Part shown: piece by piece, positions 35,001 to 53,348 of the stretch
How positions within the stretch are numbered: position 1 is the stretch's first letter
Layout of the letters: the number at the start of each line of letters is the position of its first letter
Source: Candidatus Hydrogenedentota bacterium
Lineage (GTDB): Bacteria; Hydrogenedentota; Hydrogenedentia; Hydrogenedentales; JAEUWI01
Assembly: GCA_016791475.1 (NCBI GenBank)
Contig: JAEUWI010000005.1
Span: forward strand, 62,001-126,000
Reading direction: 5' to 3'
Length of the DNA stretch: 64,000 nucleotides
Made by a program: the position numbers and the translations under genes
Notes under the pieces: model-generated
Told to the model about the DNA's origin: nothing
What the model saw: the letters and a program-made list of their open reading frames with translations, nothing else
Databases searched by the model: none

Positions 35001-35162
35001 ATCGGCGACAGCTTGAGGAGACAACTCCCAACCTCTGAGAGTTGTCCCGCGCGGCCACATCCTCGCCCTCTGGAACCGGCCCCTCACGGGATGGCATAGT
35101 ATGCATGCGGTGCCGTGCGCCGCGGGCATCGGTTTTTCCGGGGGACGAACAGCGAAGTTTTC

Positions 35163-36086: not shown

Positions 36087-36964
36087 GCAGCGCGGCAATC
36101 CTGGACAACGCCGAAGCGGGCGTCTCCCTCTGGCAGGATGCCTGGCACCGCCTGCGGAAGAACAAGCTCGCCGTCATCAGCGCGGGTGTCCTCGTTTTTG
36201 TCGTGCTCTGCGCACTTGTCGGACCCTGGCTCTCGCCCTACACCTACGACCAGCAGGACACGGCGCTCTACGCCTCGGCCCCCTCGGCGAGCCATTGGTT
36301 TGGCACGGATCCCCTGGGCCGCGATCTATTGACGCGCACGCTCTATGGCGGCCGCATCTCGCTCCTCGTGGGCCTCGTGGCCACGCTCGTCTCGATGGTC
36401 ATCGGCGTGACCTATGGCGCCATCGCGGGCTTCCTCAGCGGGCGCGTGGATCAGATCATGATGCGTCTGGTCGATGTGCTGTACGCCCTCCCCTTCACCA
36501 TTTTTGTCATCATCCTGATGGTGGTTTTCGGCCGCAACATTTTCCTGCTTTTCATCGCCATTGGCGCGGTGGAGTGGCTTACCATGGCCCGCATCGTTCG
36601 CGGGCAGGTTATTTCCCTGCGGGAGAAAGAGTTCATCGAGGCGGCGCGGGTGATGGGCTTCACCGAGGCCCGGATCATCTTCCAGCACATCATCCCAAAC
36701 ACCCTCGGGCCGATCATCATTTATGTCACCCTCACCGTGCCCCAGGTCATGCTGCTGGAGGCCTTCCTCAGCTTTCTCGGCCTCGGCGTGCAACCCCCCA
36801 TGAGCAGTTGGGGCCTCCTGATTCAGGAGGGCGTGGAGACGATGGAAGAGTTCCCCTGGATGCTCCTCTTCCCCAGCCTTGCGCTCTCGACCACCCTCTT
36901 CGCCCTGAATTTCCTGGGCGACGGTCTGCGGGACGCCCTCGACCCCAAAGCGTCGAAGGACTGA
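36083..36964 (+). CDS. oppC: Oligopeptide/dipeptide ABC transporter permease, OppC/DppC type
   Basis: The 293-residue product has the OppC N-terminal cytoplasmic tail and first helix (WHRLRKNKLAVISAGVLVFVVLCALVGPWLSPY), then the conserved ASHWFGTDPLGRDLLTRTLYGGRISL and the EAA loop EFIEAARVMGFTEARIIFQHIIPNTLGPII. About six helices are present. It pairs with OppB in the membrane. Start and coupling are set by the 4-base overlap with oppB, and oppD starts three bases after its stop. Confidence 0.94.
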   Translation: MSSAAILDNAEAGVSLWQDAWHRLRKNKLAVISAGVLVFVVLCALVGPWLSPYTYDQQDTALYASAPSASHWFGTDPLGRDLLTRTLYGGRISLLVGLVATLVSMVIGVTYGAIAGFLSGRVDQIMMRLVDVLYALPFTIFVIILMVVFGRNIFLLFIAIGAVEWLTMARIVRGQVISLREKEFIEAARVMGFTEARIIFQHIIPNTLGPIIIYVTLTVPQVMLLEAFLSFLGLGVQPPMSSWGLLIQEGVETMEEFPWMLLFPSLALSTTLFALNFLGDGLRDALDPKASKD

Positions 36965-36967
36965 CCC

Positions 36968-37948
36968 ATGAGCCTGCTGGACGTACAAAATCTTCAGACC
37001 GCCTTCCACACCCGCGACGGTGTCATCCGCGCTGTGAATGGAATCTCTTACCGCCTGGAACCCGGCGAAACCCTCGGTATTGTGGGCGAATCGGGCTCGG
37101 GCAAGTCGGTGTCGCAGTACTCTCTTCTCGGACTCCTGCCCGTGCCCCCGGCACGGGTGGAATCCGGCACGGCGCACTTCGAAGGCATCGATCTACTCGC
37201 CGCAACGCCGGCGGCGCTGCGGAAGATACGCGGTGGCCGCATTTCGATGATTTTTCAGGACCCCATGACGGCGCTGAACCCGTACATGCGCGTGGGCAAG
37301 CAACTCATGGAGCCGTTGCTGCTCCATAGCAACATCTCAAAAGCCGAGGCCCGCATGCGGGCGATTCATGCGCTGGGCGAGGTGGGTATTCAGGATGCGG
37401 AAAGCGGCCTGAAGCGCTACCCCCACGAGTTTTCCGGCGGCATGCGCCAGCGCATCATGATTGCGATGGCCCTGATTACGCGGCCCGCCCTGCTAATCGC
37501 CGACGAACCCACCACGGCCCTGGACGTGACCGTGCAGGCCCAAATCCTTGCCCTCATCAAACAGCGCCAGCGCGATCTCGGCATGGCGGTGATCATGATC
37601 ACCCACGACCTCGGCGTCATCGCGGCCACCTGCAATCGCGTACTGGTCATGTATGCCGGGCGCATTGTGGAGTCGGCGACCCGCGAGGTGCTCTTCAGCA
37701 AACCCGCCCACCCCTACACGAAAGCGCTCATGGCTTCCATGCCCGCCCTGCACCAGTCCGGCGATGCGCTCTACACCATTCCCGGCATGCCGCCCGACAT
37801 GGGCCGGGAAATCAAGGGCTGCGCCTTCGCGCCGCGCTGCGAGTTTGCGCAGGACGCGTGCCGCACCGGAGCAATGAAGCTGGCCGAAGCGCAGCCGGGC
37901 CAGGAGACTGCGTGCATTCGCGTGCAGACCGGGGAGGTGGCGTTGTGA
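36968..37948 (+). CDS. oppD: Oligopeptide/dipeptide ABC transporter ATPase, OppD type
   Basis: The 326-residue ATPase has Walker A GESGSGKS, the Q-loop MIFQDPMTALNP, signature FSGGMRQRIMIA, Walker B LLIADEPTTALD and the switch His in MITHDLGVIAA. The C-terminal extension with cysteines (GCAFAPRCEFAQDACR) is the OppD/F Fe-S or cysteine-rich tail. A GAAGGA site precedes the ATG. It powers transport with OppF. The gap of 244 bases to oppF is unusual and is filled by an inverted-repeat element. Confidence 0.95.
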   Translation: MSLLDVQNLQTAFHTRDGVIRAVNGISYRLEPGETLGIVGESGSGKSVSQYSLLGLLPVPPARVESGTAHFEGIDLLAATPAALRKIRGGRISMIFQDPMTALNPYMRVGKQLMEPLLLHSNISKAEARMRAIHALGEVGIQDAESGLKRYPHEFSGGMRQRIMIAMALITRPALLIADEPTTALDVTVQAQILALIKQRQRDLGMAVIMITHDLGVIAATCNRVLVMYAGRIVESATREVLFSKPAHPYTKALMASMPALHQSGDALYTIPGMPPDMGREIKGCAFAPRCEFAQDACRTGAMKLAEAQPGQETACIRVQTGEVAL

Positions 37949-37974
37949 TTCCGCGCACAAAAGAGCACTACGGT

Positions 37975-38157
37975 CGTGCCACGCGATCCGGCAACGCCGG
38001 TTCGTGTGCCATAAGCCTCGTGGACTTGGGACATTGGAGCAGGCCGTGTCCGAGCGGCGGAATTGAGTCTCAACCACTCGCCCAAACACCCCTTTTGTTG
38101 TTCTGGTTTGACCTCGAAACGGGCACACGAACCGGCGTTGCCGGATCGCGTGGCACG
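37975..38157. repeat. REPIN/MITE-like element with perfect 36-bp inverted ends between oppD and oppF
   Basis: The 36 bases at 37975-38010 are the exact reverse complement of 38122-38157. Each arm holds a small hairpin, CCGGC AAC GCCGG. The 111-base interior encodes nothing that I can support. The element sits inside an operon whose other junctions are 4-base overlaps or 3-base gaps. Perfect arm identity suggests recent insertion or selection on the structure. Confidence 0.88.
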
Positions 38158-38192
38158 TTTCCAATTTCTTTTGAATACGCCGAGGCCACATC

Positions 38193-39179
38193 ATGAATAA
38201 CGATTGCCTCCTTCGCATCGACAACCTCAAGACCCACTACCCCATCACTTCGGGTCCCTTCTTCAATCGCAAGGTCGAGTGGCTGCGCGCCGTGGACGGC
38301 GTAAGCCTGGAATTGAAAGAGGGCGAGATCCTGGGCCTCGTGGGCGAATCCGGCTGCGGCAAGTCAACGCTGGCGCGCACGATCATGCAACTCGTCAAGC
38401 CCGTTTCCGGCGCCATTACCTTCAACGGCAAGAACCTTACTTCCTACGGCAAGGAAGAGCTCCGACGCGCCCGGCCCGAATTCCAGATGATCTTCCAGGA
38501 CCCCTATGCATCGCTGAACCCCCGCAAGACGGTCTATGACACGTTGGCCGAACCCATGATCGCCCACGACCTCATCGACCGCGACGGCGTGCCCCATGAA
38601 GTCGGACGCCTCATGGAAAAGGTGGGTCTGGCGAAACGATTTGTGCGCAAGTATCCTCACGAGTTTTCGGGCGGTCAGCGCCAGCGCATCGCCATCGCCC
38701 GGGCGCTCGCATTGAAGCCCCGCCTCATCCTGGCCGACGAACCCGTCTCCGCGCTGGACGTTTCCGTGCAGGCCCAGATCCTGAATCTCTTGCGCGAACT
38801 CTGCATCGAAGAGCGCCTGGCGATGATTCTTATATCCCACGATCTCGCCGTGGTGAAGCACATGGCCCGGCGCATCGCCGTCATGTACCTGGGCAAAATT
38901 GTGGAACAGGGCCCCGCCGCCGAAGTCTTCAACAACCCGCGCCACCCCTACACCCGTGCGCTCCTGGGGGCCATCCTCCGGCCCACCGCCGGGGCCGCCG
39001 CCCAGCTCGAGAACCTGATGCTCCAGGGCGATCCCCCCTCGCCCCTGCACCCGCCCGCGGGCTGCGCCTTCCACCCCCGCTGCCCCTGGGCGACCCCGGC
39101 ATGCAGTCAGGCCACACCGCCGCTGGTGGCCTGTGGCGAGGGGCGCGTTGCGGCCTGCATGCGATTGGACGCGATGTAG
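38193..39179 (+). CDS. oppF: Oligopeptide/dipeptide ABC transporter ATPase, OppF type
   Basis: The 328-residue ATPase starts MNNDCLLRIDNLKTHYPI and has Walker A GESGCGKST, Q-loop MIFQDPYASLNPR, signature FSGGQRQRIAIA, Walker B LILADEPVSALD, switch His LISHDLAVVKH and the cysteine-rich tail GCAFHPRCPWATPAC. It is the second ATPase of the Opp complex. Its stop codon lies within the first bases of a downstream inverted repeat. Translation coupling with oppD is lost because of the inserted element, but co-transcription remains possible. Confidence 0.95.
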   Translation: MNNDCLLRIDNLKTHYPITSGPFFNRKVEWLRAVDGVSLELKEGEILGLVGESGCGKSTLARTIMQLVKPVSGAITFNGKNLTSYGKEELRRARPEFQMIFQDPYASLNPRKTVYDTLAEPMIAHDLIDRDGVPHEVGRLMEKVGLAKRFVRKYPHEFSGGQRQRIAIARALALKPRLILADEPVSALDVSVQAQILNLLRELCIEERLAMILISHDLAVVKHMARRIAVMYLGKIVEQGPAAEVFNNPRHPYTRALLGAILRPTAGAAAQLENLMLQGDPPSPLHPPAGCAFHPRCPWATPACSQATPPLVACGEGRVAACMRLDAM

Positions 39180-39301: not shown

Positions 39302-40152
39302 GGTGTCAGCGCCTCGGGCAACTCGCCGCCGAAGTAGATCATGAGATCCCGCCCCTCCGCCTTGGACTTTGCGATGCTCAGCACCCTTCGCTCCGCGTTC
39401 ACCTTTTGTGAATCGGCAAAATCCTGGGCCGCGCTCGCATCGTCAAATACTTCGATCACGATGTTGTCGTAGACGCGATACTTCGTGCGGAGCTCCTGAG
39501 CCAGGGCCACAACATCGTCCCGAGTGCTTCCCGCGGGCACGAGACCCGCCACGCCAATCAGCGTGGACGCCGTGCCGCCCAGCTCCGCAACGGCCTCGGG
39601 ACTGCGCCCCCATTCGTCCACCACGGTAAACTTAAATTCCTCTGCCGGCACGGCGGGCAACTGGGCCGCCGCCAGGTCCTCCAGGGACATTTCCGGCTTC
39701 GCCTCCGTTGCGGCGCCTGGTTCGGGCTGGGGAAGGCGGGCTCGCGCCGGCTCATCGGGCTTGGGCACCACGGGACCGACCGGTTGCTCGCCCCGCAACG
39801 TTGCTTTCAGGTCGCGCACCTCCGCCTCCAGCGCGGTGACCCGATTCACCATGCCCTCTTCGATGAGCTCGCGCAGGAGACGGATCTCCTGTTGCAGGCG
39901 CATCATCTCCATGGCTTCGATGGAGTGGGTGGGCGAAAGCACGGGCATCTTTTCTTCCTGGACCGTCGCCGCATTGGCCCCATCTGAGGCCGGTTCGGCT
40001 TCGCGCAACGTAAAATTCACCTGCTCCGCCGCCCAGTCGATCGCTTCGATACCAGTACGCACCGGCGGCGCTTCCTCGTCCTGAGCCGGAGCGGGACACG
40101 CCGCCACGAGCAAAAGGGCGGTTAGAAGCATATTTCCTGCAAATATTTTCAT
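39298..40152 (-). CDS. Putative lipoprotein with coiled coil
   Basis: The 284-residue product has an N-terminal signal with a lipobox-like LLVAAC (C19), then an acidic region, a coiled coil (about 75-120, MEMMRLQQEIRLLRELIEEGMVNRVTALEAEVRDLKATL), a Pro/Ala/Glu-rich linker and a C-terminal domain (about 170-284). That domain contains KFTVVDEWGRSPEAVAELG, VIEVFDDASAAQDFADSQ and VLSIAKSKAEGRDLMIYFGG. I do not recognise it. Its ATG overlaps the metallophosphoesterase stop in ATGA, so it is the last gene of a four-gene operon. An envelope role is inferred from the signal. Confidence 0.78.
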   Translation of the reverse strand: MKIFAGNMLLTALLLVAACPAPAQDEEAPPVRTGIEAIDWAAEQVNFTLREAEPASDGANAATVQEEKMPVLSPTHSIEAMEMMRLQQEIRLLRELIEEGMVNRVTALEAEVRDLKATLRGEQPVGPVVPKPDEPARARLPQPEPGAATEAKPEMSLEDLAAAQLPAVPAEEFKFTVVDEWGRSPEAVAELGGTASTLIGVAGLVPAGSTRDDVVALAQELRTKYRVYDNIVIEVFDDASAAQDFADSQKVNAERRVLSIAKSKAEGRDLMIYFGGELPEALTP

Positions 40153-41093
40153 CTTTGGTCCTGTTGGTCCATCGGGTATCCATCACCTTCAGTATAACAA
40201 CGATCCCGAAACGGAAATGCATGACAGCACCCCGGCTCCGGTGCGCTCCCATCGCCGAATACCGTCTCGAAGCGGAAGTCGCCTCCGGCGAGGTCCAGTG
40301 TGATCAGCTTCGCGCCCTTTCTTACGTCGTCGCCATAGCCCCCGTAACCCGTGGAGCGACCATAGGCGAAGACCACACCGTCTTCTTCAAACCAGCAGTC
40401 GTTCCGGTGGCTGTGGCCGCAGAAACAGGCCCGCACATTGGCCGCCGACAAAATCAGATCCGCGCCGGTGTCCCCTTCGTCTCCCCAGGCGAGCACCTCC
40501 TCCATGGCGATTCCATGAACGCGCCCCGCGTCGATGGCCCGCTGATAGCGCATGAGGGGGATGTGAAAAAATACGATGGCGGGCAGCACACGTTTCCGCG
40601 TTTCGGCCAGGGCCCTGGACTGTGAGAGCAGCCAAGCCAGATCGCCGGGAAGCCGCCATTTATCGCGGGAGTTGACGAAAAGGAGGTCCCAGGCGGTTTC
40701 ACCAGACGCCCCGCGCACTTCGAGATGACACTCGCCCCGTGGGGTGGACTCGGGGGCCGCGTAGCCCGGCGTGGCGCATATACGCGCCTGGGCCCGGGCA
40801 AAATCGGTGGCGTAATCGTGATTGCCCCAGGTGAATGCCCAGGGCGTCTCCAGCGAGGCCAGGAAATCCAGCTCCCGGGTCATCCACATACCGGCGGTCT
40901 CGGGTCGTGCGTCACCACACCAGATATCGCCCGTCACCGCGAGAAAATGGGGACGGTACCGCGCCACCATCGCACGGACATCCGCGCGGGTCCGCTCGTT
41001 TTCATATTCGCTCACGTCGGCGTGAAAATCGGTCAGTTGGAGGATGCGGAAGGCGCGGCCGTCTCCGGTGAGCGTGGGATTCTCCACCCTCAC
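40149..41093 (-). CDS. Calcineurin-like metallophosphoesterase
   Basis: The start is the GTG that overlaps the stop of the upstream methyltransferase (GTGA), giving 314 residues; longer in-frame sequence would be inside that gene. The metal ligands are in order: DFHAD, VTGDIWCGD, WGNHDYATDF, FFHIPL and CGHSHRND. These define a binuclear phosphoesterase close to the YkuE/YaeI and purple-acid-like groups. No signal peptide is seen. In this operon, between methyltransferases and a lipoprotein, it may act on a phosphorylated glycan or lipid intermediate, but that is inference. Confidence 0.85.
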   Translation of the reverse strand: MRVENPTLTGDGRAFRILQLTDFHADVSEYENERTRADVRAMVARYRPHFLAVTGDIWCGDARPETAGMWMTRELDFLASLETPWAFTWGNHDYATDFARAQARICATPGYAAPESTPRGECHLEVRGASGETAWDLLFVNSRDKWRLPGDLAWLLSQSRALAETRKRVLPAIVFFHIPLMRYQRAIDAGRVHGIAMEEVLAWGDEGDTGADLILSAANVRACFCGHSHRNDCWFEEDGVVFAYGRSTGYGGYGDDVRKGAKLITLDLAGGDFRFETVFGDGSAPEPGCCHAFPFRDRCYTEGDGYPMDQQDQR

Positions 41094-41755
41094 GCGGGCG
41101 AGACCCCGGATGGTGGCGCAATCCGCTTTACAACACACAGCCCGGCGACGTTGACGACCTCGACGAATTCGGTGGACGTTTGCAGCAGTTCCTGATAGAA
41201 GCGGGTGACCCCTTCCCAATCGCCAATGTCGTGGAATGCGATCAGGCCGCCCAGTACGACATGGGGAGACCACAGACTAAAGTCGAGTTGCGATGCTTCG
41301 TAAGAGTGGTCGGCGTCGATAAAGAGAAGTCGTATAGGGCCACTCCAACGTTCCGCGGCCTCCTGCGAGCTGGCCCTGACGGGTATGACGTGGTCCTCCA
41401 CTCCGAAATTGCGGATGTTCTCTTCGAACTTGTGAAAGGTGGTGCCTTGCTCCACCAGGGCTCTCACTTCGTGTTGGGCGTTCTCCTGGTGCTCCGGAGA
41501 CCCGGCGAAGTGGTCCACGGCGTAGACCTTTTCGCGCTGCGCGTTTTTCGAGCCGGTGGCAAGCCAGCAGGTGGACTTGCCCATGAAGCTTCCGATCTCC
41601 ACAATCGCGCCGCAGCCCGGCCCCTCTTCGGCCAGGAGCATGAGGGTATAGCCCTGAATGTCGATGAGGTAGCCGTCGATCGATTTGATGCGTTCGCCCA
41701 GGTTCGCATAGTTGAGCGCGGTTTTCAGTTTGAAGAGAAAGCTGTCGATCTCCAT
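41090..41755 (-). CDS. Class I SAM-dependent methyltransferase (Methyltransf_24 type)
   Basis: The 221-residue product has the SAM-binding IVEIGSFMGKSTCWLATG motif I, YAVDHFAGSPEH, then VIPVRASSQEAAERW and IRLLFIDADHSYEASQLDFSLWSPHVVLGGLIAFHDIGDWEGV. The last two are the metal/acidic site of the cephalosporin-hydroxylase-like or glycan O-methyltransferase group, often found in polysaccharide loci. The stop overlaps the next start in GTGA. A second methyltransferase gene lies 41 bases upstream. Confidence 0.87.
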   Translation of the reverse strand: MEIDSFLFKLKTALNYANLGERIKSIDGYLIDIQGYTLMLLAEEGPGCGAIVEIGSFMGKSTCWLATGSKNAQREKVYAVDHFAGSPEHQENAQHEVRALVEQGTTFHKFEENIRNFGVEDHVIPVRASSQEAAERWSGPIRLLFIDADHSYEASQLDFSLWSPHVVLGGLIAFHDIGDWEGVTRFYQELLQTSTEFVEVVNVAGLCVVKRIAPPSGVSPA

Positions 41756-41796
41756 GCCGGGTTGGGCCCTTTCATTTCACGTCGGTTTCGACCTGC

Positions 41797-42489
41797 TTAA
41801 CTTCTGAGAGAACCGTCTTTTCGGCCCACGAGAAACATCTGTCCGCCCATGAAATAATGGGCCGGGGGAAACATCAGGTAGAGTTTGACCAGCCAGGGCC
41901 AGCGTGGATAGCGGCTCTTGGTGGTATAGGGCAGAAAACGGGTGCGCACTTCCTCCAGCACGAAGCCGTTGGACTGGAGCGATTCGGCCATGCCCTTTTC
42001 GGTGAGGGGCAGGCTGTGATCGGAGTAGTCGTAGAAGCGCTCTTTAACCACGCGGATATTCGGCTGCATCACGATGATCCTGCCGGCCGGCCGCAACACG
42101 CGATACGCTTCCGCCAGACAATCGTACAGGTACTGGCGATCGGGGAGGTGCTCAAACACGTTGCTGACCATGATGCGATCAATGCTGTCATCCGGCACCT
42201 GCTTCAATCCATCGACCAGCTCGGCCACGATGCACTCCACGGAATCCGCCGCATGGCCCGTCACGTCGGGGTTATGATCGATGGCGTATTTCTTCGCCGA
42301 GACGATGTTATTGATGAATTCGCAGGCGCCCGCCCCCAGATCGAGGGTGGTGGAGTCGGCGGGGATGTAGCGGGCGAACCAGTGTTCGCAGAGCACCTGC
42401 CACAGTTCGATGCGGCCGCCCATCTCTTCCTCGCCGAAGCGGGTGCGGTAAATCTTCCGGTCTATGGTCAATGCGTCCTCACACTTCAC
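41797..42489 (-). CDS. Class I SAM-dependent methyltransferase (Methyltransf_11 type)
   Basis: The product of about 230 residues shows motif I TLDLGAGACEFINNI, YAIDHNPDV, IMVSNVFEHLPDRQYLYDCLAEAYRVLRPAGRIIVMQPN and a C-terminal region with RYPRWPWLVKLYLMFPP. The latter pattern is common among O-antigen and lipid-linked glycan methyltransferases. The start is uncertain: GTG at 42489 (VKCEDALTID) and TTG at 42471, which has GAGG six bases upstream, are both possible; sequence further upstream is control region shared with the divergent membrane gene. First gene of the minus-strand operon. Confidence 0.83.
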   Translation of the reverse strand: MKCEDALTIDRKIYRTRFGEEEMGGRIELWQVLCEHWFARYIPADSTTLDLGAGACEFINNIVSAKKYAIDHNPDVTGHAADSVECIVAELVDGLKQVPDDSIDRIMVSNVFEHLPDRQYLYDCLAEAYRVLRPAGRIIVMQPNIRVVKERFYDYSDHSLPLTEKGMAESLQSNGFVLEEVRTRFLPYTTKSRYPRWPWLVKLYLMFPPAHYFMGGQMFLVGRKDGSLRS

Positions 42490-42641
42490 CGTGGCGCTGT
42501 ATCGCGGGCCGCATGCCCGAGCCTGCGGCCCACGGGCGGTATTATACCGGCGCGCCGCACGGGCCGGTAGTTTGTTGACCCCGTAACCGGGCCTGCCCCA
42601 TGATAGCGCCTTTCCACCGTGCCGCACCGGGAATCTGATCC

Positions 42642-44561
42642 ATGACCCTCGAACACTTTCGCAAGCCTTTCACGCAGCGCCCCTGTCTGACGGGGGCCAT
42701 GCTCTGGACGGTCTTCTCGCTGTTGGCAGTCCTCCTGCGCGGCGTGCGCTGGGACGAGAACTACGAGTTCGCTCAGGTGATTTTGGGTCAGATCCCCTAC
42801 CCTGAAGGGCATCCCCTCTTCCAGTACGTCCACGGTTTTTACAGTCTCCAGACCTACAGCCTGGCCGCCCTCATGTATTTCTTCCCCGAGCCCCTGCTCC
42901 CAAATCTGCTGCGGAACTGGGCCTTTCTCGCCGCTTCGACGGTGCCCGTGTATCTGTTGGGCACCCTTTTCGCGCGGCGGCAACTGGTCGGCCACGTGGC
43001 GGTGATTTTCGTGCTGCTGCAGATCCATACCAGCTTCTACAGCACCTACCCCGTGCTCGTCTGGCCCATGATTTTCTCCAACGGCGCCATCGGACTCGGC
43101 TATATGCTGCTGGCCCTCTGGGCCCTGCTGGATCGGCGCTACCGCCTCGCCGGGCTGCTGCTGGGCCTTGCGCCCGCCGTCCACCTCGGCCAGTTTCCGC
43201 CACTTCTGATCATTGGCGCGCTTCAGGTCCTGTGGCTCCTGCGGAAAGGTCAGACCCGCGATGTGCTCACCCTGATTCGGTTTGCCATACCTGGCCTCGC
43301 GGCTTCGGTTCTTTTTGCCCTCTTTTTGCGCGGGTTCGCCGTAGCCCCGCCGGTGGACGGCCCCTATTTCAGTCCCGTAGCGCCGGAGTTGCTGTGGCGC
43401 ACCTTCATGGAGCGCTATGCCGGCCACCGCGCCATCCCCTGGACCACGGGCCACATCGTGCTGGTGGGGGCGGTGCTGCTGGCCGTTGGCCTGTTGGCTG
43501 TCCGCCGCAGCGGCGCCGGGCGTTCGAATACGCCCCAGGGACCGCTGCTGGAGAGTCCCTGGACCTGGGGCCTGCTCTATTGCGCCATCGCTTCGATCCT
43601 GGTTTGGTCCATCATGGCGGTCCACTATGTCATGGGACCCGACATCCCCTATGTGCTCGTGGGCTGGCTGCCCTATCGCCTCATGAACCATGTGGCCCCC
43701 GTTTTGATTCCGCTGCTGGTGGCCATTGGCTATACCCGCGAGGACCGCATGCCCGCTTGGATTAGCGCCGCGTTGCTGGCCGCGCTTCTCACCCCGCTGG
43801 CCGATCTCGCGATGGAGCGCGAAATGATCGCCAAGTATCTCGACAATGGAGAATATCTCTTCTTCTACCTCTTCGGCGGAACGATGGGCACCGGTTTACT
43901 GCTCGCCTGCCGTCAGAGGGCCGTTCCAGCAATGGCGGCTATTGTTGCGTCCGCCGCCGTGCTCGGGCTTCTCGCGGTCTTTCACCAGTATGGCGCCGCA
44001 TGCACGCTGGCGGGCGTGCTCGCGGCCTGCGTGCCCCTTCCCGGCGCGGTCACCCCGCGCGCGCTCCGCTTTGTCGGGGCGGGGCTGGCCTGCCTGATCC
44101 TGCTGGCCCTCGTGGCCCGGGAGGTCGAGGCCCGCAACCATCTCTATCGAAGTGATTTCCATCAAGCGGTGGCCGAGGTCATGGAACGAGAGGGCAAACC
44201 GCAGGGGATGATTCTGGTCCAGCACGATCAGGCGGGGGATCAGATGCAGTTTGGCCATCCGGTCATGGCGGATATGGCCACCATGCTGCATGGCGTCTAC
44301 CGCCCGGCCATCGCGCCCTCCGTCAATGCGATCTTTCAAGACTTCTACGGCGTCTATCTCGATCCCGCGGCGCCCCGGCCCGAGCCGCCTCTGGCGTGGC
44401 ATGAGGTGTGGCCTTCCTTTTCGCTGGAGACCTGGCAGCGGCTCTCGGTGAAATATGGCGTAGAGTATGTGGCCGCGCCGTCCTTCATGCGCCTGCCGCT
44501 GGAGATGCTGGTCCGAGGCGACCAGCGCAATTTCTACCACATCCCACCGGCGGACCATTGA
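42642..44561 (+). CDS. Polytopic membrane protein, GT-C glycosyltransferase-like
   Basis: The 639-residue protein has about ten to twelve transmembrane helices followed by a soluble C-terminal domain from about residue 490. After the first helix comes an acidic loop (VRWDENYEFAQVILGQIPYPEGHPLF) with the D/E-rich placement that GT-C enzymes use for metal and donor binding. A TYPVLVWPMIF helix and VHLGQFPPLLI loop also fit. The soluble end contains HDQAGDQMQFGHPVMADMATMLHGVYRP. GT-C enzymes transfer sugars from polyprenyl phosphate donors outside the inner membrane. The assignment rests on topology, not on a recognised family. It is 31 bases upstream of three sulfatase-like genes on the same strand. 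Confidence 0.7.
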   Translation: MTLEHFRKPFTQRPCLTGAMLWTVFSLLAVLLRGVRWDENYEFAQVILGQIPYPEGHPLFQYVHGFYSLQTYSLAALMYFFPEPLLPNLLRNWAFLAASTVPVYLLGTLFARRQLVGHVAVIFVLLQIHTSFYSTYPVLVWPMIFSNGAIGLGYMLLALWALLDRRYRLAGLLLGLAPAVHLGQFPPLLIIGALQVLWLLRKGQTRDVLTLIRFAIPGLAASVLFALFLRGFAVAPPVDGPYFSPVAPELLWRTFMERYAGHRAIPWTTGHIVLVGAVLLAVGLLAVRRSGAGRSNTPQGPLLESPWTWGLLYCAIASILVWSIMAVHYVMGPDIPYVLVGWLPYRLMNHVAPVLIPLLVAIGYTREDRMPAWISAALLAALLTPLADLAMEREMIAKYLDNGEYLFFYLFGGTMGTGLLLACRQRAVPAMAAIVASAAVLGLLAVFHQYGAACTLAGVLAACVPLPGAVTPRALRFVGAGLACLILLALVAREVEARNHLYRSDFHQAVAEVMEREGKPQGMILVQHDQAGDQMQFGHPVMADMATMLHGVYRPAIAPSVNAIFQDFYGVYLDPAAPRPEPPLAWHEVWPSFSLETWQRLSVKYGVEYVAAPSFMRLPLEMLVRGDQRNFYHIPPADH

Positions 44562-44592
44562 ACTGTAACGCGGACGAAGGCTACCATCGCGC

Positions 44593-46116
44593 ATGCACAC
44601 CACCACACCGCAACATCGCGCCTTGATCGCCCATCCCCTTCTTTTTGGGCTCTTCCCGGTGTTTTCATTGCTCTCGGCCAACCTGGTCTGGGCGGCGCCG
44701 ACGGAAGCCCTGCTGCCTGCCGGTGCGGTCCTGATCATCGGGGGCATCTTGTGGCTCGTTTTGTGGCCCGTGTTGCCCGACCGGCACAAGCGCGGCCTGG
44801 TGGTCTCGCTCTTCTGGCTGCCCTTCTATGCGTATGGCGCCGTGGTGGATTTTATCCGCGCCCAATTCGATTTCCACGACATGCTCAGCCCCGCCCAGAC
44901 TGTCGGGGCCGCAGCGGTCTTGTTGCTCATCGCCGCCGCGCTGCTCTACCTGCTGCGGCGCACTTCCCGGCCCTTTGTACGCGTAACAGCTTTTCTGAAT
45001 CGCCTCTCCACCTTCATGCTGGCGGTCGCGCTGCTTTCCTGCGTTGTCGCGGTGGCCCGGGGCTTCAATACCCGCGCTCAGGCCGCCGCCGTGCCCGTGC
45101 GCCTCAATCCGGAGCAGCGTGCCCAGCTTCCCAATATCTACTTTATCCTCTGCGATGCCTACCCGCGGGCGGATTATCTCCGGGATTATTTTGAGTTCGA
45201 AAATACTCCTTTTCTGGGCCAACTGCGGGAACGGGGTTTCTACGTGGCCGATCGAAGCCGCTCCAACTACTGCCACACCCTGCCGTCCCTGGCCTCCACG
45301 CTGAATCTCGACTTCCTGGACCCGGCCATCGTTCCCCGGCAGTTCAGCGAGAACTATCCCCTCCTCATTCCCCTGGTGCGCGACAACCTCGTGGTGCGCA
45401 CACTGCGGGCCCACGACTACGAGTTCGTCGCCATCGCCTCGGGGCTGTTTCCCACGAAGATGGAGGATGCCGACCGCTTCATCCGCCCCGGCGCCTTCAA
45501 CAACACGGAGTATCAGCAGAACCTTATCGACATGACGCCCGTGCGCTCCATCATGAACCGCATGGACCAGTTGCTGTGGTATCAGCTCGTGCCCTTCACG
45601 CTGGACACGCTCGCGGGCCTGCGCCGGGAGGGACGGCCCATGTTTGTTTTTGCTCACCTCCTGGCGCCCCACCTGCCCCACGCCTACGACAAGGATGGAA
45701 ACTTTGTGGATACCTTTCCGCCGTACAAGGAGGGCTGGCGCACGGTCACAACGTACTTGAACAAGCGCCTGATCGAAGTGGTGGACGAGATCCGAACGAA
45801 CGAGCCCAACTCCATCATTGTCATCCAGGGCGATCACGGCAGCAACACGGCCCTTCAGAGCCCCGAGGAGTACGCGGCTAATCCCTGGCGAGGCGAGTGG
45901 CGCGACTACGTGCGCGATCGCAGCGCCAATCTGCTCTCGGTCTACGTGCCGGAAAGAGATCCCGCGACACTGTTCTATCCCGAGATGACCCCGGTTAATT
46001 TGTTCCGGATTCTTTTCGACACCTTCCTCCAGACGGACTACGGAAAACTCGACGACGTCACCTGGATCACGCCTCAGAACTCGCGGGAGCTGCTGAAAGT
46101 GACGGAGGTTTACTGA
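44593..46116 (+). CDS. Membrane-anchored sulfatase/LTA-synthase-like protein, paralog 1
   Basis: The 507-residue protein has about five N-terminal helices (HPLLFGLFPVFSLLSANLVWA start) and a periplasmic alkaline-phosphatase-superfamily domain. Domain sites: LPNIYFILCDAYPR (metal Asp), RSRSNYCHTLPSLASTLN (candidate nucleophile Thr), FAHLLAPHLPHAYD and IQGDHGSNT (metal Asp/His). A Thr rather than Cys-x-Pro-x-Arg nucleophile indicates a phosphotransferase or phosphodiesterase such as phosphoglycerol or phosphoethanolamine transferases, not a formylglycine sulfatase. It differs from its two neighbours by Cys-His in place of Pro-Asn before the Thr. The next paralog follows after three bases. Confidence 0.85.
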   Translation: MHTTTPQHRALIAHPLLFGLFPVFSLLSANLVWAAPTEALLPAGAVLIIGGILWLVLWPVLPDRHKRGLVVSLFWLPFYAYGAVVDFIRAQFDFHDMLSPAQTVGAAAVLLLIAAALLYLLRRTSRPFVRVTAFLNRLSTFMLAVALLSCVVAVARGFNTRAQAAAVPVRLNPEQRAQLPNIYFILCDAYPRADYLRDYFEFENTPFLGQLRERGFYVADRSRSNYCHTLPSLASTLNLDFLDPAIVPRQFSENYPLLIPLVRDNLVVRTLRAHDYEFVAIASGLFPTKMEDADRFIRPGAFNNTEYQQNLIDMTPVRSIMNRMDQLLWYQLVPFTLDTLAGLRREGRPMFVFAHLLAPHLPHAYDKDGNFVDTFPPYKEGWRTVTTYLNKRLIEVVDEIRTNEPNSIIVIQGDHGSNTALQSPEEYAANPWRGEWRDYVRDRSANLLSVYVPERDPATLFYPEMTPVNLFRILFDTFLQTDYGKLDDVTWITPQNSRELLKVTEVY

Positions 46117-46119
46117 TCC

Positions 46120-47646
46120 ATGAGTTCCTCCCCTTCCCCATCCTCCCGGACCCTGGTTCTTCATCCCATTTTTCTGGGACTTTTCCCCCTCTTTTCGCTC
46201 CTGTCGGCCAACATGGCCTGGGCGGGCCTCGGCGAGGTGCTCCTGCCCGCCGGGGTTGTCCTCGCGGTCGCGGCGGTGTTGTGGATCACCCTGTGGCCCC
46301 TCGTGCCTCAGCCCCACAAGCGGGGTCTGGTGGTCTCGCTGTTCTGGCTGCCTTTCTTCGGCTACAGCACCATCGTGGATTCGCTCCGCGCGCTCCTGGG
46401 CTATCGGGAAATGCTCGGCGTGGGAGCACTGGCGGCGGTGGCCCTCCTCGCGGCGGCGCTCGGGCTCGCATTCATAGCGATGCTGCGCCGGGCCCCCTGG
46501 GAGCTTGTCGGCGCGACGAAATTCCTGAACCGTATTTCGGGGCTGGCTCTCGCGGTGGCCCTGCTTTCCTGCGCCATGAGCTACGCGCGCCAGGCCCCTT
46601 CTCCTTCGATGGAGCCCGCAACGGCGATGGCGGCCGTTCCGCCGGACGCGGATGCGCTGCCCAATATCTACTTCATCGTCTGCGACTCCTATCCCCGGGC
46701 GGACTATCTGAAATCGTATTTCGACATGGACAACACGCCATTCCTGAATGCCCTCCGGGAACGGGGCTTCTACATCGCGGAGCGGAGCCGCTCCAACTAT
46801 CCCAACACCATGCCGTCGCTGTCGTCCACCTTGAATCTCGAGTATCTCGACAACGCCCTGGCCCCCGGCGGCTGGGATGAGTACTACCCGGAACTGATCC
46901 CCCGGATGAAGGACAATCTCGTGGTGCGCACGCTGCGCGCACGGGGCTACGAGTATGTCGCCATCGCCACGGGACTCTTTCCCACGGATATGACCGGGGC
47001 CGACCGCTACATTCACCCGGGCGACAAACCGTATACGGAGTATCAGCAGCGCCTGATAGAAATCACACCCGTCCGGTCCATCTTCAATCGCATGAAAAAA
47101 CCCCACCACCACCGCCTCGCCCCGTTCGTTTTTGACACGCTGGAGGGCCTGCGGCGAAACGAACGGCCCATGTTTGTCTTCGCCCACGTGCTGCTGCCCC
47201 ACCTGCCCCACGGCTACGACGCCGAGGGCAACATACGGCTGGACTATCCGCCCTACAAGGAGGGTTGGCGCCAGATGACGGATCTTGTGAATCGTCGCCT
47301 CACGGAAATCGTGGACAGCATCCAGCGCCACGAGCCCAACTCGATCATCATCATCGAAGGCGATCACGGCCCCCGGACTTCCTGGCAGGACGCAAACACG
47401 ATGGACCTGCTGCCCTGGAAGGGCACCTGGGAAGAGTACATCCGCGATCGCAGCGCCAATCTGAGCACCTATTATTTTCCGGATCGCCAGTATGAGGGAT
47501 TGCTCTACCCGGAGATTACGCCGGTGAACACCTTTCGTGTGATTTTCAACAAGTACTTCGGCGGGAACTACGAGATGCTCGAAGACGTCACCTACCTGTC
47601 CCCCCAGGGAAGTGCGGAGATCATCCGGGTCGACACGGTGCATTGA
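46120..47646 (+). CDS. Membrane-anchored sulfatase/LTA-synthase-like protein, paralog 2
   Basis: The 508-residue protein is collinear with its neighbours: HPIFLGLFPLFSLLSANMAWA, helices to about 160, then LPNIYFIVCDSYPRADYLKSYFD, RSRSNYPNTMPSLSSTLN (candidate nucleophile Thr), FAHVLLPHLPHGYD and IEGDHGPRTSW. Paralog 3 is closer to it than paralog 1 (shared QPHKRGL, YPNT, EGDHGPRT and FPDRQY). It should be a phosphotransferase-like enzyme facing the periplasm. The start ATG lies three bases after the previous stop, so translation is coupled. Confidence 0.85.
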   Translation: MSSSPSPSSRTLVLHPIFLGLFPLFSLLSANMAWAGLGEVLLPAGVVLAVAAVLWITLWPLVPQPHKRGLVVSLFWLPFFGYSTIVDSLRALLGYREMLGVGALAAVALLAAALGLAFIAMLRRAPWELVGATKFLNRISGLALAVALLSCAMSYARQAPSPSMEPATAMAAVPPDADALPNIYFIVCDSYPRADYLKSYFDMDNTPFLNALRERGFYIAERSRSNYPNTMPSLSSTLNLEYLDNALAPGGWDEYYPELIPRMKDNLVVRTLRARGYEYVAIATGLFPTDMTGADRYIHPGDKPYTEYQQRLIEITPVRSIFNRMKKPHHHRLAPFVFDTLEGLRRNERPMFVFAHVLLPHLPHGYDAEGNIRLDYPPYKEGWRQMTDLVNRRLTEIVDSIQRHEPNSIIIIEGDHGPRTSWQDANTMDLLPWKGTWEEYIRDRSANLSTYYFPDRQYEGLLYPEITPVNTFRVIFNKYFGGNYEMLEDVTYLSPQGSAEIIRVDTVH

Positions 47647-47677
47647 TTCGGTGGCCCACACAACGTTACCATCCGCC

Positions 47678-49207
47678 ATGACCGAACAGCCCCCCAACCG
47701 AAGCCGCGCCCTTATCCTGCACCCCTTTTTCTTCGGGCTTTTCCCCCTCTTTTCCCTGCTCTCGGCCAACATGGTCTGGGCGGGCTTTAACGAAGTATGG
47801 CTGCCCGCCGCCGTGGTGATCGCAGCCACGACCCTGCTTTGGCTGGCCCTCTGGCCACTCCTGCCGCAACCGCACAAGCGGGGACTGGCCCTCTCCCTGT
47901 TCTGGCTGCCCTTCTACGGCTATAGCCTCGTGGTCGATACCCTTCGGGACTTCTTCAGCTTCCGCGAACTCCTCAGTCCCGGCGCCGTGGCGGCTATCGC
48001 GGTCGCGACCGCGCTGATCGCCGCAGGCGCGCTCTGGGGACTCCGGAAGTCGCCCTGGTCTTTCAAGGGCGTCACCACGGCCCTGAACCGCATTTCCGCT
48101 TTGATCCTGTTGGTCGCGCTGGCTTCCTGCGCCGTCGCGCTCGTGCGTCAGTCCCAGGCGCAACCTAGCGTGGCCATGCCGGTCCCGGCGGACAAGGCGT
48201 TGGACCCCGCAGCCCTGCCGAACATCTATTTCATCGTGGCGGATTCATATCCCCGGTCGGACTATCTGAAGTCGTATTTCGACATCGACAACACGCCCTT
48301 CCTTGATCAGCTTCGCGCGCGGGGCTTCTACATCGCAGAGCGGAGCCGCTCCAATTATCCCAACACGCTGCCCTCGCTCGCGTCCACCCTCAACATGGAC
48401 TATCTAGACAACGCCATCGCCACGGAAGGCTGGGAGGACGCGCGCTACCCTTCCCTCCTCTCCCAGATTCGGGGCAATAGGGTGGTGCCCATGCTCCGGT
48501 CCGTCGGCTACGAGTTCGTGGCCATCGCCTCCGGCGTCTTCCCCACGGAACTGGGCGAGGCGGACCGCTTTATCCATCCGGGCGGCTGGCGGCCCACGGA
48601 ATATCACCAGCAGTTGATCGACGCCACCCCGATTCGCTCCGTCCTCAACCGGATGAAAAAGAAGCGATTCCACCACCGGGTCCCCTTCGTGTTTGACACG
48701 CTCGAAACCGTGCGGCGGGAAGACAAGCCCATGTTCGTCTTCGCCCACCTCATGGCGCCCCACCTGCCCCACGCCTACGATGTGGACGGCAATGTGCTGC
48801 TGGAGTTTCCGCCCTACAAGCCAGGCTGGCGGCAGATGACAGACTTCGTGAACCGGCGGCTCATTGCGGTGGTGGACGCTATTCAAAAGCACGAACCGAA
48901 CTCCGTCATCATCATCGAGGGTGATCACGGTCCCCGGACCACCTGGCAGAGCACCTTTTCCAACGAACTGCTGCCCTGGGAAGGCCCCTGGGAAGAGTAC
49001 GTCCGCGATCGCTGCGCCAACCTGAGCACCTTCTACTTTCCCGACCGGCAGTATGATGGCCTCCTCTACCCGGAGATCACGCCCGTGAATTCTTTCCGCG
49101 TCATCTTCAACAAGTTTTTCGGTACACAATTCGACCTCCTCGAAGATGTGACGTACCTGTCGCCACAACACAGCACCGAGATTGTGCGCGTGGAAGAAAT
49201 GTATTGA
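47678..49207 (+). CDS. Membrane-anchored sulfatase/LTA-synthase-like protein, paralog 3
   Basis: The 509-residue protein repeats the same plan: HPFFFGLFPLFSLLSANMVWA, about five helices, LPNIYFIVADSYPRSDYLKSYFD, RSRSNYPNTLPSLASTLN with the candidate Thr nucleophile, FAHLMAPHLPHAYD and IEGDHGPRTTW. Note VAD where paralogs 1 and 2 have LCD and VCD; the metal Asp is kept. The ATG at 47678 is chosen because the sequence before it reads through the intergenic spacer. It ends the plus-strand set; no terminator is visible in the 91 bases before the convergent gene. Confidence 0.85.
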   Translation: MTEQPPNRSRALILHPFFFGLFPLFSLLSANMVWAGFNEVWLPAAVVIAATTLLWLALWPLLPQPHKRGLALSLFWLPFYGYSLVVDTLRDFFSFRELLSPGAVAAIAVATALIAAGALWGLRKSPWSFKGVTTALNRISALILLVALASCAVALVRQSQAQPSVAMPVPADKALDPAALPNIYFIVADSYPRSDYLKSYFDIDNTPFLDQLRARGFYIAERSRSNYPNTLPSLASTLNMDYLDNAIATEGWEDARYPSLLSQIRGNRVVPMLRSVGYEFVAIASGVFPTELGEADRFIHPGGWRPTEYHQQLIDATPIRSVLNRMKKKRFHHRVPFVFDTLETVRREDKPMFVFAHLMAPHLPHAYDVDGNVLLEFPPYKPGWRQMTDFVNRRLIAVVDAIQKHEPNSVIIIEGDHGPRTTWQSTFSNELLPWEGPWEEYVRDRCANLSTFYFPDRQYDGLLYPEITPVNSFRVIFNKFFGTQFDLLEDVTYLSPQHSTEIVRVEEMY

Positions 49208-49298: not shown

Positions 49299-49898
49299 TT
49301 ATTCGGAGGCCGCGCGCTCAACGCTTTCACGCAACTTGGCGTAATTCGACTCTATCGGTCCGAGCTTTCGCAATGAGGAAAGCGCTATTCGCCTTTGAGC
49401 GAAAACCTGTTGATCGAGTACGCGCGCCGACAAGACAAAAAATGTCCATTGCTCCATCTGGGTCGGATCAATGGTGGTCTTGTCTTGATGATGCAAGAGG
49501 CAAAACACGTAAACGTCCGCCGCGCGCCGTGCACATTCAGACACTTCATTGGTGGCTATGTTGTCCGGCCATTTGGGAGCTATATCAAAACTTATCGGCG
49601 AAAGGCGGCGCTGTGCCCATGATTGGCAATAGGCGGCGGATTTCACTTCTACTCGGACACCGTACGGCGTAGCGAGATCGCATGCGTCCCATTCGACTCG
49701 CACACCGCCTTTCAGTTCCAAGGCCTGGCCCACAATGAACTCTGCCAGCAGACCGCGCATTGAATTGCACACTAGATCAGATCCCATCCATCGCCAGAAG
49801 TCTAGGATTTCAAATTGCAGGTCTCCTGCCCCATTTGTGAACCTTTCCTGACCGGTCAATGCGGACACCTGAATGGCTGGAATTTGAGCACCCTTCAC
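49299..49898 (-). CDS. Putative PD-(D/E)XK nuclease-like protein
   Basis: A 199-residue protein with GTG start behind GAGGGAG. The central part has GLLAEFIVGQALEL (E53), VEWDACDLATPYG (D71/D74) and VRVEVKSAAYCQSW (E84-V-K86), the order E...D...ExK of restriction-endonuclease-like folds. A second conserved part reads ADVYVFCLLHH, DPTQMEQWTFFVL and LD. No function has been assigned to such proteins that I know; a nuclease or inactive nuclease-fold role is inferred. Base composition is visibly less GC-rich than neighbours, which hints at acquisition. It is convergent with the third sulfatase-like gene. Confidence 0.65.
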   Translation of the reverse strand: MKGAQIPAIQVSALTGQERFTNGAGDLQFEILDFWRWMGSDLVCNSMRGLLAEFIVGQALELKGGVRVEWDACDLATPYGVRVEVKSAAYCQSWAQRRLSPISFDIAPKWPDNIATNEVSECARRAADVYVFCLLHHQDKTTIDPTQMEQWTFFVLSARVLDQQVFAQRRIALSSLRKLGPIESNYAKLRESVERAASE

Positions 49899-50018: not shown

Positions 50019-53000
50019 CTAGAACTGAATCTTCAACGATTTGATCTCGTAGGGCGTGAAGTACAGGGCGGCCGTGTGGCCCTTGAACTTCACGGGCTTG
50101 TCGTTCTCTTCCATCATGTCGCACACCGCAATGGATTTCGGCGGGCGGGCGAAGGACAGAAGCACATCGCCGCGCTGGCCATAAGCCTCGTAGACGCGCA
50201 CGATGAGCGCGTCGGAATCTTCCGCCTTCTTTACGGCGTCGATGATCACGTTGTCCGCGTCCATACTCGCGAAGGAGGCCGCCGCTTCGGCCGCGGCGCC
50301 CGATACCGCGATCAGCGGCACGTTGAGTTCGTAGCCCTGCTGCACGGTGCCATTGCGCCAATCGCCGTTGTGGGGATAGAGGCTGTAAACCATCGTGTGC
50401 TCGCCCTGATCCGCCTGGGGATCGGGGTGCACCGGGGCGCGCAGCAGGGACAGGCGCATGACATTGCCCTTGATGTCATAGCTGTACTTGCAGTCGTTGA
50501 GCAGACTCACGCCGTAGTTGCCTTCGGACAGATCGGCCCAGTGGTGGCCGGTGACCTCGAAGCGCGCGCGCTCGTGCTCTCGGCTCCCGTGGGTCGCCCG
50601 CTCGATGGTGCCGTACTGGATGTCGTAGGTCGCTTTCGAACTCAGGATGTCCACCGGGAAAGCCACCTTCATCAGCACGCGCTTCTCATGCCAGTCCACG
50701 TGGGTCTGCACATCCACCCGCTGGAGCAGGGCGTACAACGTGATGTCCTGCGTGATGGTGCTGTTTTCGGTCTTGCGCACCACGCGCACCACGGCGCGTA
50801 CCGGGCCTTCTTCGATCACCTTGACGGACTCCGCCTTTCCCGGGGCCCACTGCTGTTCCTCGTCGAAGTTGTGGTCCATTTCCCAGGCGTCGTGATCGAA
50901 GGGACGGTCATCGAACAACTGGATGACGTTGCCCTTCTGGCCCTTGGCGAGTACTTCGCGGCCTTCGAGCTTGTCGTAGATACTGGTAAACTCGCCGTTG
51001 CCGTCGAGCTTGATAAGCAGGGTGTCGTTTTCCAGGGCCTTCGTGTTCACGTTCAACTCGGAAGGCTCGGCGGTCGACCCCTTTCCGCTTACAACATGAA
51101 ACACGGCGTGGCCCAGGGGCGGCACATTGGCCGCCTCGAAGAGAATCCGGTCCTTGCCGATCTTCTGGCTGGGCGCCACCACGCCGTCGGGTCCGACCAC
51201 ATGGAAAGCGCCCTTGGGCAGGGCCACTTCGGCCTCCACCACATCGGTGCGAACCCAGGAGAGGGTGTTAAAGATGACCAGCGGGGTGCCGGGGCTTGCT
51301 TCGTTGCTCTTGCCCAGCACTTTGGGCAGCGCGGTCGCGCGCACGTCCAGCACGGTCTGAAGGGCCTTCGCATAGTCCTTCTCGGCGGTTGTGTACACTT
51401 CGGTGATCGACGAGCCGGGGAGGATATCGTGGAACTGATTGGTCAATAGCGTGCGCCAGGCCGTCCAGAGGGTGTCGTTGTCGTACTTGCCGCCGTTGAG
51501 GTGGGCGAGGGACGCGAGGAACTCCGTGTCGTGAAGCGCGATCTCGATCTTCCGGTTGAAGCGCTTCGTGCGGGCCTGGGTCACCTGGCAGGCGCGATGA
51601 AGTTCCAGATACAGCTCGTCGTTATATACGGGCAGGGCCTCGTCCGGGCACTGCTGCGCCATGCGGTCCAAGCTGTCCTGTGTGCGGCCGAATTCGCACT
51701 TGGGCACGCCAATGATGTTCTTCAGGCGTCGCCCGTGCTCGATCATCTCCGGCGTCGCGCCGCCGCCGCCATCGCCCCAGCCGAAGGGGAAGGGCAGCTC
51801 TTCGATCCTGTCGCGCTGCTTGAAAAGCTGCCATTGCTGGATGCAATCGGCGGGCACGGGATTGCCGTTGTAGTTGAGCGGCGGCATGCACGCGCGGATG
51901 CGGGTGCCGTCGATACCCTGCCACTGGAAGAGGCTGTAGGGGAATTTGGTGAACATGCTCCAGTCGATCTTCGTGGTGACAAAAGTGTCGATCTGGCACT
52001 GGCGCAGAATCTGGGGCAGGGACCACGGGTAACCGAAGGCGTCGGGCAGCCACGCGGTGCGCGAACGCATGCCAAATTCCTTCTGGAAGAAGCGGTTGCC
52101 GTAGAGAAACTGGCGGACCAGCGACTCGCCGTTGGGCATGTTGCTGTCCTGTTCGATCCAGGGCGCGCCGCAGGGCTCCCAGCGGCCTTCCTTCACGCGC
52201 TGCTTGATGCCCTTCCACACTTCGGGAAAGTGCTCCTTCACGTACATGTACAGTTCGGGCTGGCTGCACGAGAAGTGGTACTCCGGGTAGCGCTCCATGA
52301 GGCGCAGCACCGTGGAGAAGGTGCGACCGACTTTGCGGCGCGTCTCGCGCAGGGGCCAGAGCCACGCCGTGTCGATGTGGGAGTGGCCCACGAGAATAAG
52401 CTTGCCCATGCCGTGGCTGTTCTCGAAACGCTTGAGCTCTTTCTTGAGCCACGCGCTCGTCTTCGCGCAGGAGGCGTAGTAGGCCGGCGTGCCCACGTGC
52501 TGCAGGTCCACCATGCGGACCGCCTTTGCGATTACGTCAAAGAGCTGGCGCACGGGCGCATAGCCGGGGTCGAGCGCCTTGTAGGCCTTGAAGGGCACCA
52601 GGAGATCCCAATACACGTCCCACGCTTCCTGATGGAGCACCGCCATGTCGGCATATTCGAAGTGGTGCTCGATGTCCATCTTCGTGCTGGGCACGCCTTC
52701 CAGCGCGATCTCGAACTTTTCCCCGGCCTTGGCCTTCTTCGACAGCACGATCTCCTCGTGGAACTTGTCCAGACCCTGGTAGGGCTGGCCGTTGATATAG
52801 GCCAGAGCCTCGCCCGCCGCCGAAAGCATGGGCACGCCCCATTCGAAGTGGCCGCCCGAGTGGCGGATCAGCGCCACGACCTGCTGGCCGGCGAATTCTT
52901 TGGGAATTACCGCCGTCATGCGGAACCAGGTGGTCTGGTCGAAGCCGCCCCAGCGGTCCATGACCTTGAAAGGCTTCCAGCCGGACTTCGGCATGCGCTC

Positions 53001-53141
53001 CGGACCCAGACCCCGGCCGGTCACGCTGGCTTCAACCGGCCCGATGGGCCGGCGGTGGCTGTAGATGGTGGCCTGGATTTCCTTCAGCCGCGCATCAATC
53101 TGCTGGGTTTCAATATTGCGTTCGGCATCAAAATTGGGCAT
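50019..53141 (-). CDS. GH38 alpha-mannosidase
   Basis: The 1,040-residue cytoplasmic-type enzyme hydrolyses alpha-mannosides with retention. It starts MPNFDAERNIETQQ after AAAGGAAG; in-frame sequence upstream covers the intergenic spacer and is excluded. An N-terminal beta-rich region precedes the catalytic domain: LILVGHSHIDTAWLWPLRET (zinc ligands, about residue 256), WLPDAFGYPWSLPQIL with the nucleophile Asp at about 367, LFQWQGIDGTRI, and the alpha-helical FHDILPGSSITEVY. The C-terminal GH38 beta domains follow. No signal peptide is seen. Family length is about 1,000. A role in turnover of mannose-containing glycans is expected. Confidence 0.95.
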   Translation of the reverse strand: MPNFDAERNIETQQIDARLKEIQATIYSHRRPIGPVEASVTGRGLGPERMPKSGWKPFKVMDRWGGFDQTTWFRMTAVIPKEFAGQQVVALIRHSGGHFEWGVPMLSAAGEALAYINGQPYQGLDKFHEEIVLSKKAKAGEKFEIALEGVPSTKMDIEHHFEYADMAVLHQEAWDVYWDLLVPFKAYKALDPGYAPVRQLFDVIAKAVRMVDLQHVGTPAYYASCAKTSAWLKKELKRFENSHGMGKLILVGHSHIDTAWLWPLRETRRKVGRTFSTVLRLMERYPEYHFSCSQPELYMYVKEHFPEVWKGIKQRVKEGRWEPCGAPWIEQDSNMPNGESLVRQFLYGNRFFQKEFGMRSRTAWLPDAFGYPWSLPQILRQCQIDTFVTTKIDWSMFTKFPYSLFQWQGIDGTRIRACMPPLNYNGNPVPADCIQQWQLFKQRDRIEELPFPFGWGDGGGGATPEMIEHGRRLKNIIGVPKCEFGRTQDSLDRMAQQCPDEALPVYNDELYLELHRACQVTQARTKRFNRKIEIALHDTEFLASLAHLNGGKYDNDTLWTAWRTLLTNQFHDILPGSSITEVYTTAEKDYAKALQTVLDVRATALPKVLGKSNEASPGTPLVIFNTLSWVRTDVVEAEVALPKGAFHVVGPDGVVAPSQKIGKDRILFEAANVPPLGHAVFHVVSGKGSTAEPSELNVNTKALENDTLLIKLDGNGEFTSIYDKLEGREVLAKGQKGNVIQLFDDRPFDHDAWEMDHNFDEEQQWAPGKAESVKVIEEGPVRAVVRVVRKTENSTITQDITLYALLQRVDVQTHVDWHEKRVLMKVAFPVDILSSKATYDIQYGTIERATHGSREHERARFEVTGHHWADLSEGNYGVSLLNDCKYSYDIKGNVMRLSLLRAPVHPDPQADQGEHTMVYSLYPHNGDWRNGTVQQGYELNVPLIAVSGAAAEAAASFASMDADNVIIDAVKKAEDSDALIVRVYEAYGQRGDVLLSFARPPKSIAVCDMMEENDKPVKFKGHTAALYFTPYEIKSLKIQF

Positions 53142-53297
53142 GGGAAAGCGCTTCCTTTCGGGGGAAATCGTTGTGAAGTCTGGGAAAGATGGTTGCGCGG
53201 GCGGCGGGTGCGGCACCCGGAACCGGGCGCTATTATACGGGCCCCCAAGCCCCAAAGAAAATGTTTTGCCAAGTTGCGGATATGTCCGCACATGGCA

Positions 53298-53328
53298 AGA
53301 GGGCGGCCTCGATTCGAGGCCGCCCTCT
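53298..53328. terminator. Strong hairpin, likely terminator of the lipoprotein gene
   Basis: A perfect 14-bp stem (AGAGGGCGGCCTCG with CGAGGCCGCCCTCT) and a 3-base loop. It lies 21 bases after the distal stop of the lipoprotein frame, supporting that distal stop as the true gene end. T-richness is limited on both sides. Confidence 0.65.
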
Positions 53329-53348
53329 GCATTTTCCATTACCTGTGG

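Follow-up and report, generated by a model that had tools for sequence, protein, structure and literature searches.

A tandem array of three predicted NoeB-like membrane phosphotransferases without a local NoeA in a Hydrogenedentota genome

Three adjacent paralogs, each combining a membrane region with an alkaline-phosphatase-superfamily domain, are encoded behind a GT-C-fold protein in a Candidatus Hydrogenedentota bacterium, and the locus raises the question of which reaction the paralogs catalyze and whether they form one pathway with their neighbours, as an earlier note on this DNA had supposed. The window, that is, the whole 64-kb stretch that was analysed, is part of a 183-kb contig in a 7.7-Mb metagenome-assembled genome. 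The GT-C gene (42642..44561, 639 aa) and the genes for P1 (44593..46116, 507 aa), P2 (46120..47646, 508 aa), and P3 (47678..49207, 509 aa counted from the ATG at 47678) all lie on the plus strand, with successive gaps of 31, 3, and 31 bp. Divergent from them, as described earlier, the minus strand at 40149-42627 carries the class I methyltransferase MT1 (41797..42627, Pfam Methyltransf_11), the methyltransferase MT2 (41090..41755, Pfam Methyltransf_24), and a calcineurin-like phosphoesterase (40149-41273, assigned by Pfam). On the far side of the triplet, a 199-aa ORF of low GC3 (49299..49898) and an alpha-mannosidase-like gene (50019..53339), named by reading of its sequence, are both on the minus strand. 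An oligopeptide-type ABC transporter cluster (35115-39179, plus strand), whose two permeases and two ATPases were named by ORF reading, lies upstream of the region.

The three paralogs are encoded by intact ORFs with pairwise identities of 55.5, 56.0, and 64.6%, far above chance, and all of them exceed the Pfam Sulfatase cut-off (E 9e-7, the value for P1, to 3e-8). In the AF2 model of P2 (pLDDT 92.2, pTM 0.91), five N-terminal helical elements (15-30, 37-58, 65-93, 101-124, and 130-157) precede a catalytic domain at about 163-508, which bears out the five-helix anchor proposed in the earlier note. The threonine nucleophile site and the metal-binding Asp/His set claimed there were also recovered as a coherent, conserved site: Asp189, Thr230, His356, His361, Asp415, and His416 (P2 numbering) are present in P1, P2, and P3, and Thr230 opens helix 230-238 in the model. 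Across 82 relatives, the candidate active-site residues are nearly invariant: D189, N226, H361, D415, and N470 occur in all 82, H356 in 81, H416 in 78, and T230 in 78, with Ser in the other 4. The top Foldseek matches of the P2 model were MCR-1 and EptA, and the model also matched EptC (Z 22.1 over 289 residues at 4.1 A), YejM (Z 21.5), and LtaS (Z 20.3). Because sulfatases were matched at similar Z, about 20, the fold alone names no function; the alkaline-phosphatase fold includes phosphatases, phosphodiesterases, and non-catalytic regulators.

In LtaS, EptA, and YejM, the published active sites combine a Thr nucleophile with ligands that are acidic residues and His; in YejM, the first metal position is Asp (PMC7576196). 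With the EptA/EptC/MCR phosphoethanolamine transferases, the paralogs share the fold, the membrane anchor, the Thr nucleophile, and the Asp-His ligands; the five-helix anchor and the same-fold domain are both present in the P2 model, with the helices matched loosely. In contrast, the first metal position is Glu240 in EptA and Asp189 in 82 of 82 relatives, an equivalence that rests on fold and motif order. LtaS likewise resembles the paralogs in fold and predicted Thr nucleophile, and its Asp475 and His476 have equivalents in them, but Asp stands in place of its Glu255 and there is no sequence-family match. In the paralog-family profile, the His361 and Asp415/His416 motifs align with SHGP and SDHG of EptA. 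The profile comparisons with E. coli OpgB, EptC, and YejM were weak and confined to C-terminal parts (for EptC, only the PHxP to GDHG region, with low probability), leaving the Thr230 region outside the alignment, and we therefore infer the mapping of Thr230 onto these three proteins. One of the paralogs, searched against the sequences in PDB, gave no match, and no NCBIfam family was reached above its cut-off by the paralogs or 81 relatives.

Profile comparison instead placed the paralogs in a widespread family related to rhizobial NoeB. NoeA and NoeB are host-range nodulation proteins, encoded in the nodL-noeA-noeB operon of Sinorhizobium/Ensifer. HHalign joined the paralog family to NoeB at 97.8% (E 1e-12, 287 columns) with the D, T, AHxxxPHxP, and GDHG motifs aligned, and the paralogs are called NoeB-like on this basis. 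NoeB also scored 58.5 bits against the paralog-family profile, which did not report E. coli EptC, OpgB, or YejM. The two share the alkaline-phosphatase fold; the similarity is nevertheless remote, at 16% identity, and no established chemistry for NoeB was found in the accessible literature. A scan of named genomes yielded 298 loci of the family, the best 80 of which came from Hydrogenedentota, Chloroflexota, Planctomycetota, Armatimonadota, KSB1, Zixibacteria, Nitrospinota, an archaeon, and others. Unusual architectures were seen among these loci. In Zixiibacteriota (L129:7998-11174), the NoeB-like enzyme and an O-antigen ligase domain (Wzy_C, E 1.5e-19) form one ORF of 1059 aa, a fusion that supports an acceptor among the envelope glycans. 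In Nitrospinaceae (L134:966-3293), the ORF of the NoeB-like enzyme also encodes a TPR-like repeat region at its C-terminal end. In a low-scoring clade of Hydrogenedentota family f5 (L011:889-2739, L010, and L013), whose host genomes contain no high-scoring NoeA, GDHG is replaced by SGRGAP or STRGAA, and these members are possibly non-catalytic.

The only strongly recurring neighbour of the family is a NoeA-type protein of about 460 aa that starts with SFRDPSGF and possesses a C-terminal methyltransferase domain; by reading of the sequence, its N-terminal stretch shows a D-x4-N ... D pattern like that of a kinase catalytic loop. A plasmid search identified it as a NoeA relative (35% identity over 99%), and noeA adjoins noeB in Ensifer. 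A relation to WbdD was considered and set aside in favour of the NoeA match, as WbdD was matched only weakly, in the methyltransferase part (E 0.07). Counting only loci with enough upstream sequence, the partner adjoins the enzyme in at least 34 of 69, its gene mostly preceding that of the enzyme by 1-60 bp in the same orientation; the count is a lower bound because the simple gene caller missed the partner at L075, where the annotated record contains it. Among 68 Hydrogenedentota genomes, high-scoring NoeB-like genes (>330 bits) were found in 8, and high-scoring NoeA-like genes (>650 bits) in exactly those 8, with both thresholds set post hoc at natural score gaps. The nominal probability of this co-occurrence, 1e-10, overstates the pairing, since the thresholds were chosen after the scores had been viewed and the genomes are related; lower-scoring NoeB-like or NoeA-like members showed no pairing in the same 68 genomes. 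At about forty loci from many phyla, the gene just upstream of NoeA or the enzyme encodes a small membrane protein (about 75 aa) that bears the motif AYLDPGTGS (for example, L074:1410, L113:6479, and L150:5754-5969, with AYLDPGTGSY). Glycan genes were not clearly enriched beside the family: the nearest 110 genes included 6 Glycos_transf_2 and 4 Glycos_transf_1 matches, and 110 distant genes included 3 Glycos_transf_1, with Glycos_transf_2 not among the 25 matches listed.

The source genome possesses a fourth paralog on contig C1, next to its sole NoeA (C1:162748-164112); a pattern search for the AYLDPGTGS protein at this locus did not find it. No NoeA homolog was found within the 64-kb window, and the triplet is thus an orphan array without a local NoeA, which, together with its three-copy tandem form, distinguishes it from rhizobial NoeB and from the family at large, in which an enzyme is usually found beside a NoeA-type protein. 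The C1 arrangement and that of many relatives resemble the Legionella pair Lani_1194/Lani_1195, in which a NoeA homolog with kinase and methyltransferase parts adjoins a NoeB homolog of alkaline-phosphatase fold (PMC9758233). The earlier statement that no described system has this set therefore stands only in part: a NoeB relative is known from nodL-noeA-noeB and NoeA/NoeB-type neighbourhoods have been described, but the array in the window is an orphan, and the consulted passages of PMC9758233 do not deal with NoeB genes in tandem.

In the phylogenetic tree, the triplet is monophyletic (SH-aLRT 98), with P2 and P3 as sisters and P1 outside, and its sister is a single copy in genome G007. Four tandem copies occur at L084, three copies near one another at L104, and tandem pairs at L074, L079, L087, L097, L107, and L122, so that tandem duplication is recurrent in the family. 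The C1 copy is 73-74% identical to its congener orthologs, a smaller divergence than that among P1-P3 (55-65% identity), and the duplications are therefore probably older than the split of the congeners. As part of the best overall explanation, the triplet probably arose by such an old tandem duplication. It is absent from all three congeners (94-95% complete), and both the gain of a ready-made array here and its loss there are possible. Composition lends no support to a recent foreign origin of the triplet, its GC3 being 0.80-0.81.

The GT-C protein gave a model of pLDDT 88 that matched Pmt4, STT3/OST, ArnT, PglB, and DPY19 at Z 15-18, nearly all of its best 50 matches being GT-C enzymes (Z up to 17.8), so that the GT-C topology read earlier from the sequence was borne out. 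The protein has no Pfam match; in its first extracytoplasmic loop, W37, E39, and E42 are invariant and D38 is near-invariant among 22 relatives, and it is predicted to be a glycosyltransferase dependent on a polyprenyl-phosphate sugar as the presumed donor. The earlier note had united this protein, the methyltransferases, the phosphoesterase, and the three paralogs in a single dedicated pathway for the synthesis and decoration of an envelope polymer. The co-directional genes with their short gaps, the confirmed GT-C fold, and the GC3 of the GT-C gene (0.80), which equals that of the triplet, speak for this reading, but the survey of gene order in relatives did not recover a conserved association of the neighbouring genes with the triplet, an outcome that the earlier note had itself named as refuting its view. 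Congeners G001 and G003 keep the methyltransferase, GT-C, and alpha-mannosidase genes in the same order, and both the triplet and the 199-aa ORF are missing from these loci. In them, MT1 lies beside the GT-C gene (tblastn, 75-81%), and the alpha-mannosidase-like gene, 76% identical, follows the GT-C gene directly, after about 60 bp in G003. In G001, both methyltransferases are present (MT2 is kept at one congener locus; tblastn, 63%), and the genome contains no high-scoring NoeB-like gene. No homolog of the phosphoesterase was found at the G001 and G003 loci by tblastn. Genome G002 gives no information on this site, as its contig stops beside the GT-C gene. The 199-aa ORF, which has no Pfam match and no homolog at the congener loci L057/L058, is possibly a recent acquisition. 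The GT-C protein belongs to a separate multi-copy Hydrogenedentota family with relatives in 18 of 40 genomes and five copies in the source genome; most of the genomes with such relatives lack high-scoring NoeB-like genes, and the distribution of the GT-C family shows no tie to the NoeB-like enzymes. On the present data, the pairing of the triplet with the GT-C gene is therefore specific to the source genome, and a single pathway uniting all of these genes is unlikely. It is similarly doubtful that the orphan array, freed from NoeA, was recruited together with the GT-C protein into a lineage-specific envelope decoration in which the paralogs serve three positions or acceptors.

Two other readings concern the chemistry of the paralogs themselves. 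That they are nutritional sulfatases or phosphatases stripping groups off extracellular polysaccharides would accord with the Pfam Sulfatase match, with the sulfatase structures among the matches of the P2 model, and with the presence of a canonical sulfatase in the same window (32647-34059, plus strand). The latter contains the formylglycine motif CSPSR and an SGSH_C domain, whereas the C/S-x-P-x-R motif is absent from P1, P2, and P3, which in addition carry a multi-helix membrane anchor and show a clearly NoeB-related family profile; this reading is accordingly rather improbable. A role as non-catalytic sensors or regulators, as assigned to YejM/LapC, which is annotated in its record as an LPS signal protein of E. 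coli, draws on the common membrane and periplasmic layout, the similar fold, and the Asp shared at the first metal position (PMC7576196). YejM, however, possesses Arg451 (PMC7576196), at the position of LtaS His476, where the paralogs have the widely conserved His416, and every motif is retained in all three copies, which makes a regulatory role very improbable.

P1-P3 are thus most readily explained as NoeB-like inner-membrane phosphotransferases, which probably use Thr230 and a bound metal to take a phospho-group from a lipid and hand it on to a glycan or another lipid on the extracytoplasmic side. In the proposed mechanism, the paralogs would be anchored in the cytoplasmic membrane and expose their catalytic domain on its outer side, and a metal held by Asp189, Thr230, Asp415, and His416 could activate Thr230. 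The activated Thr230 may then attack the phosphodiester of a membrane donor, be it the head group of a phospholipid or a group linked to polyprenyl phosphate, to form a phospho-threonine intermediate. Following this step, the phospho-group would be passed to an acceptor beyond this membrane, for which a glycan or glycolipid of the cell surface is the likeliest candidate. The three copies would probably act on different acceptors or positions, and the neighbouring GT-C protein may share a substrate with the triplet, a pairing seen in the source genome alone.

The occurrence of NoeA/NoeB-related pairs in Hydrogenedentota, Planctomycetota, Armatimonadota, Chloroflexota, and an archaeon extends these proteins beyond rhizobia and suggests that an older, general module for envelope modification was the source of rhizobial noeA/noeB. 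The matched presence of the two genes in 8 of 68 genomes and the AYLDPGTGS protein make this module testable outside symbiosis, and the triplet shows that its NoeB part is able to multiply without a local NoeA.
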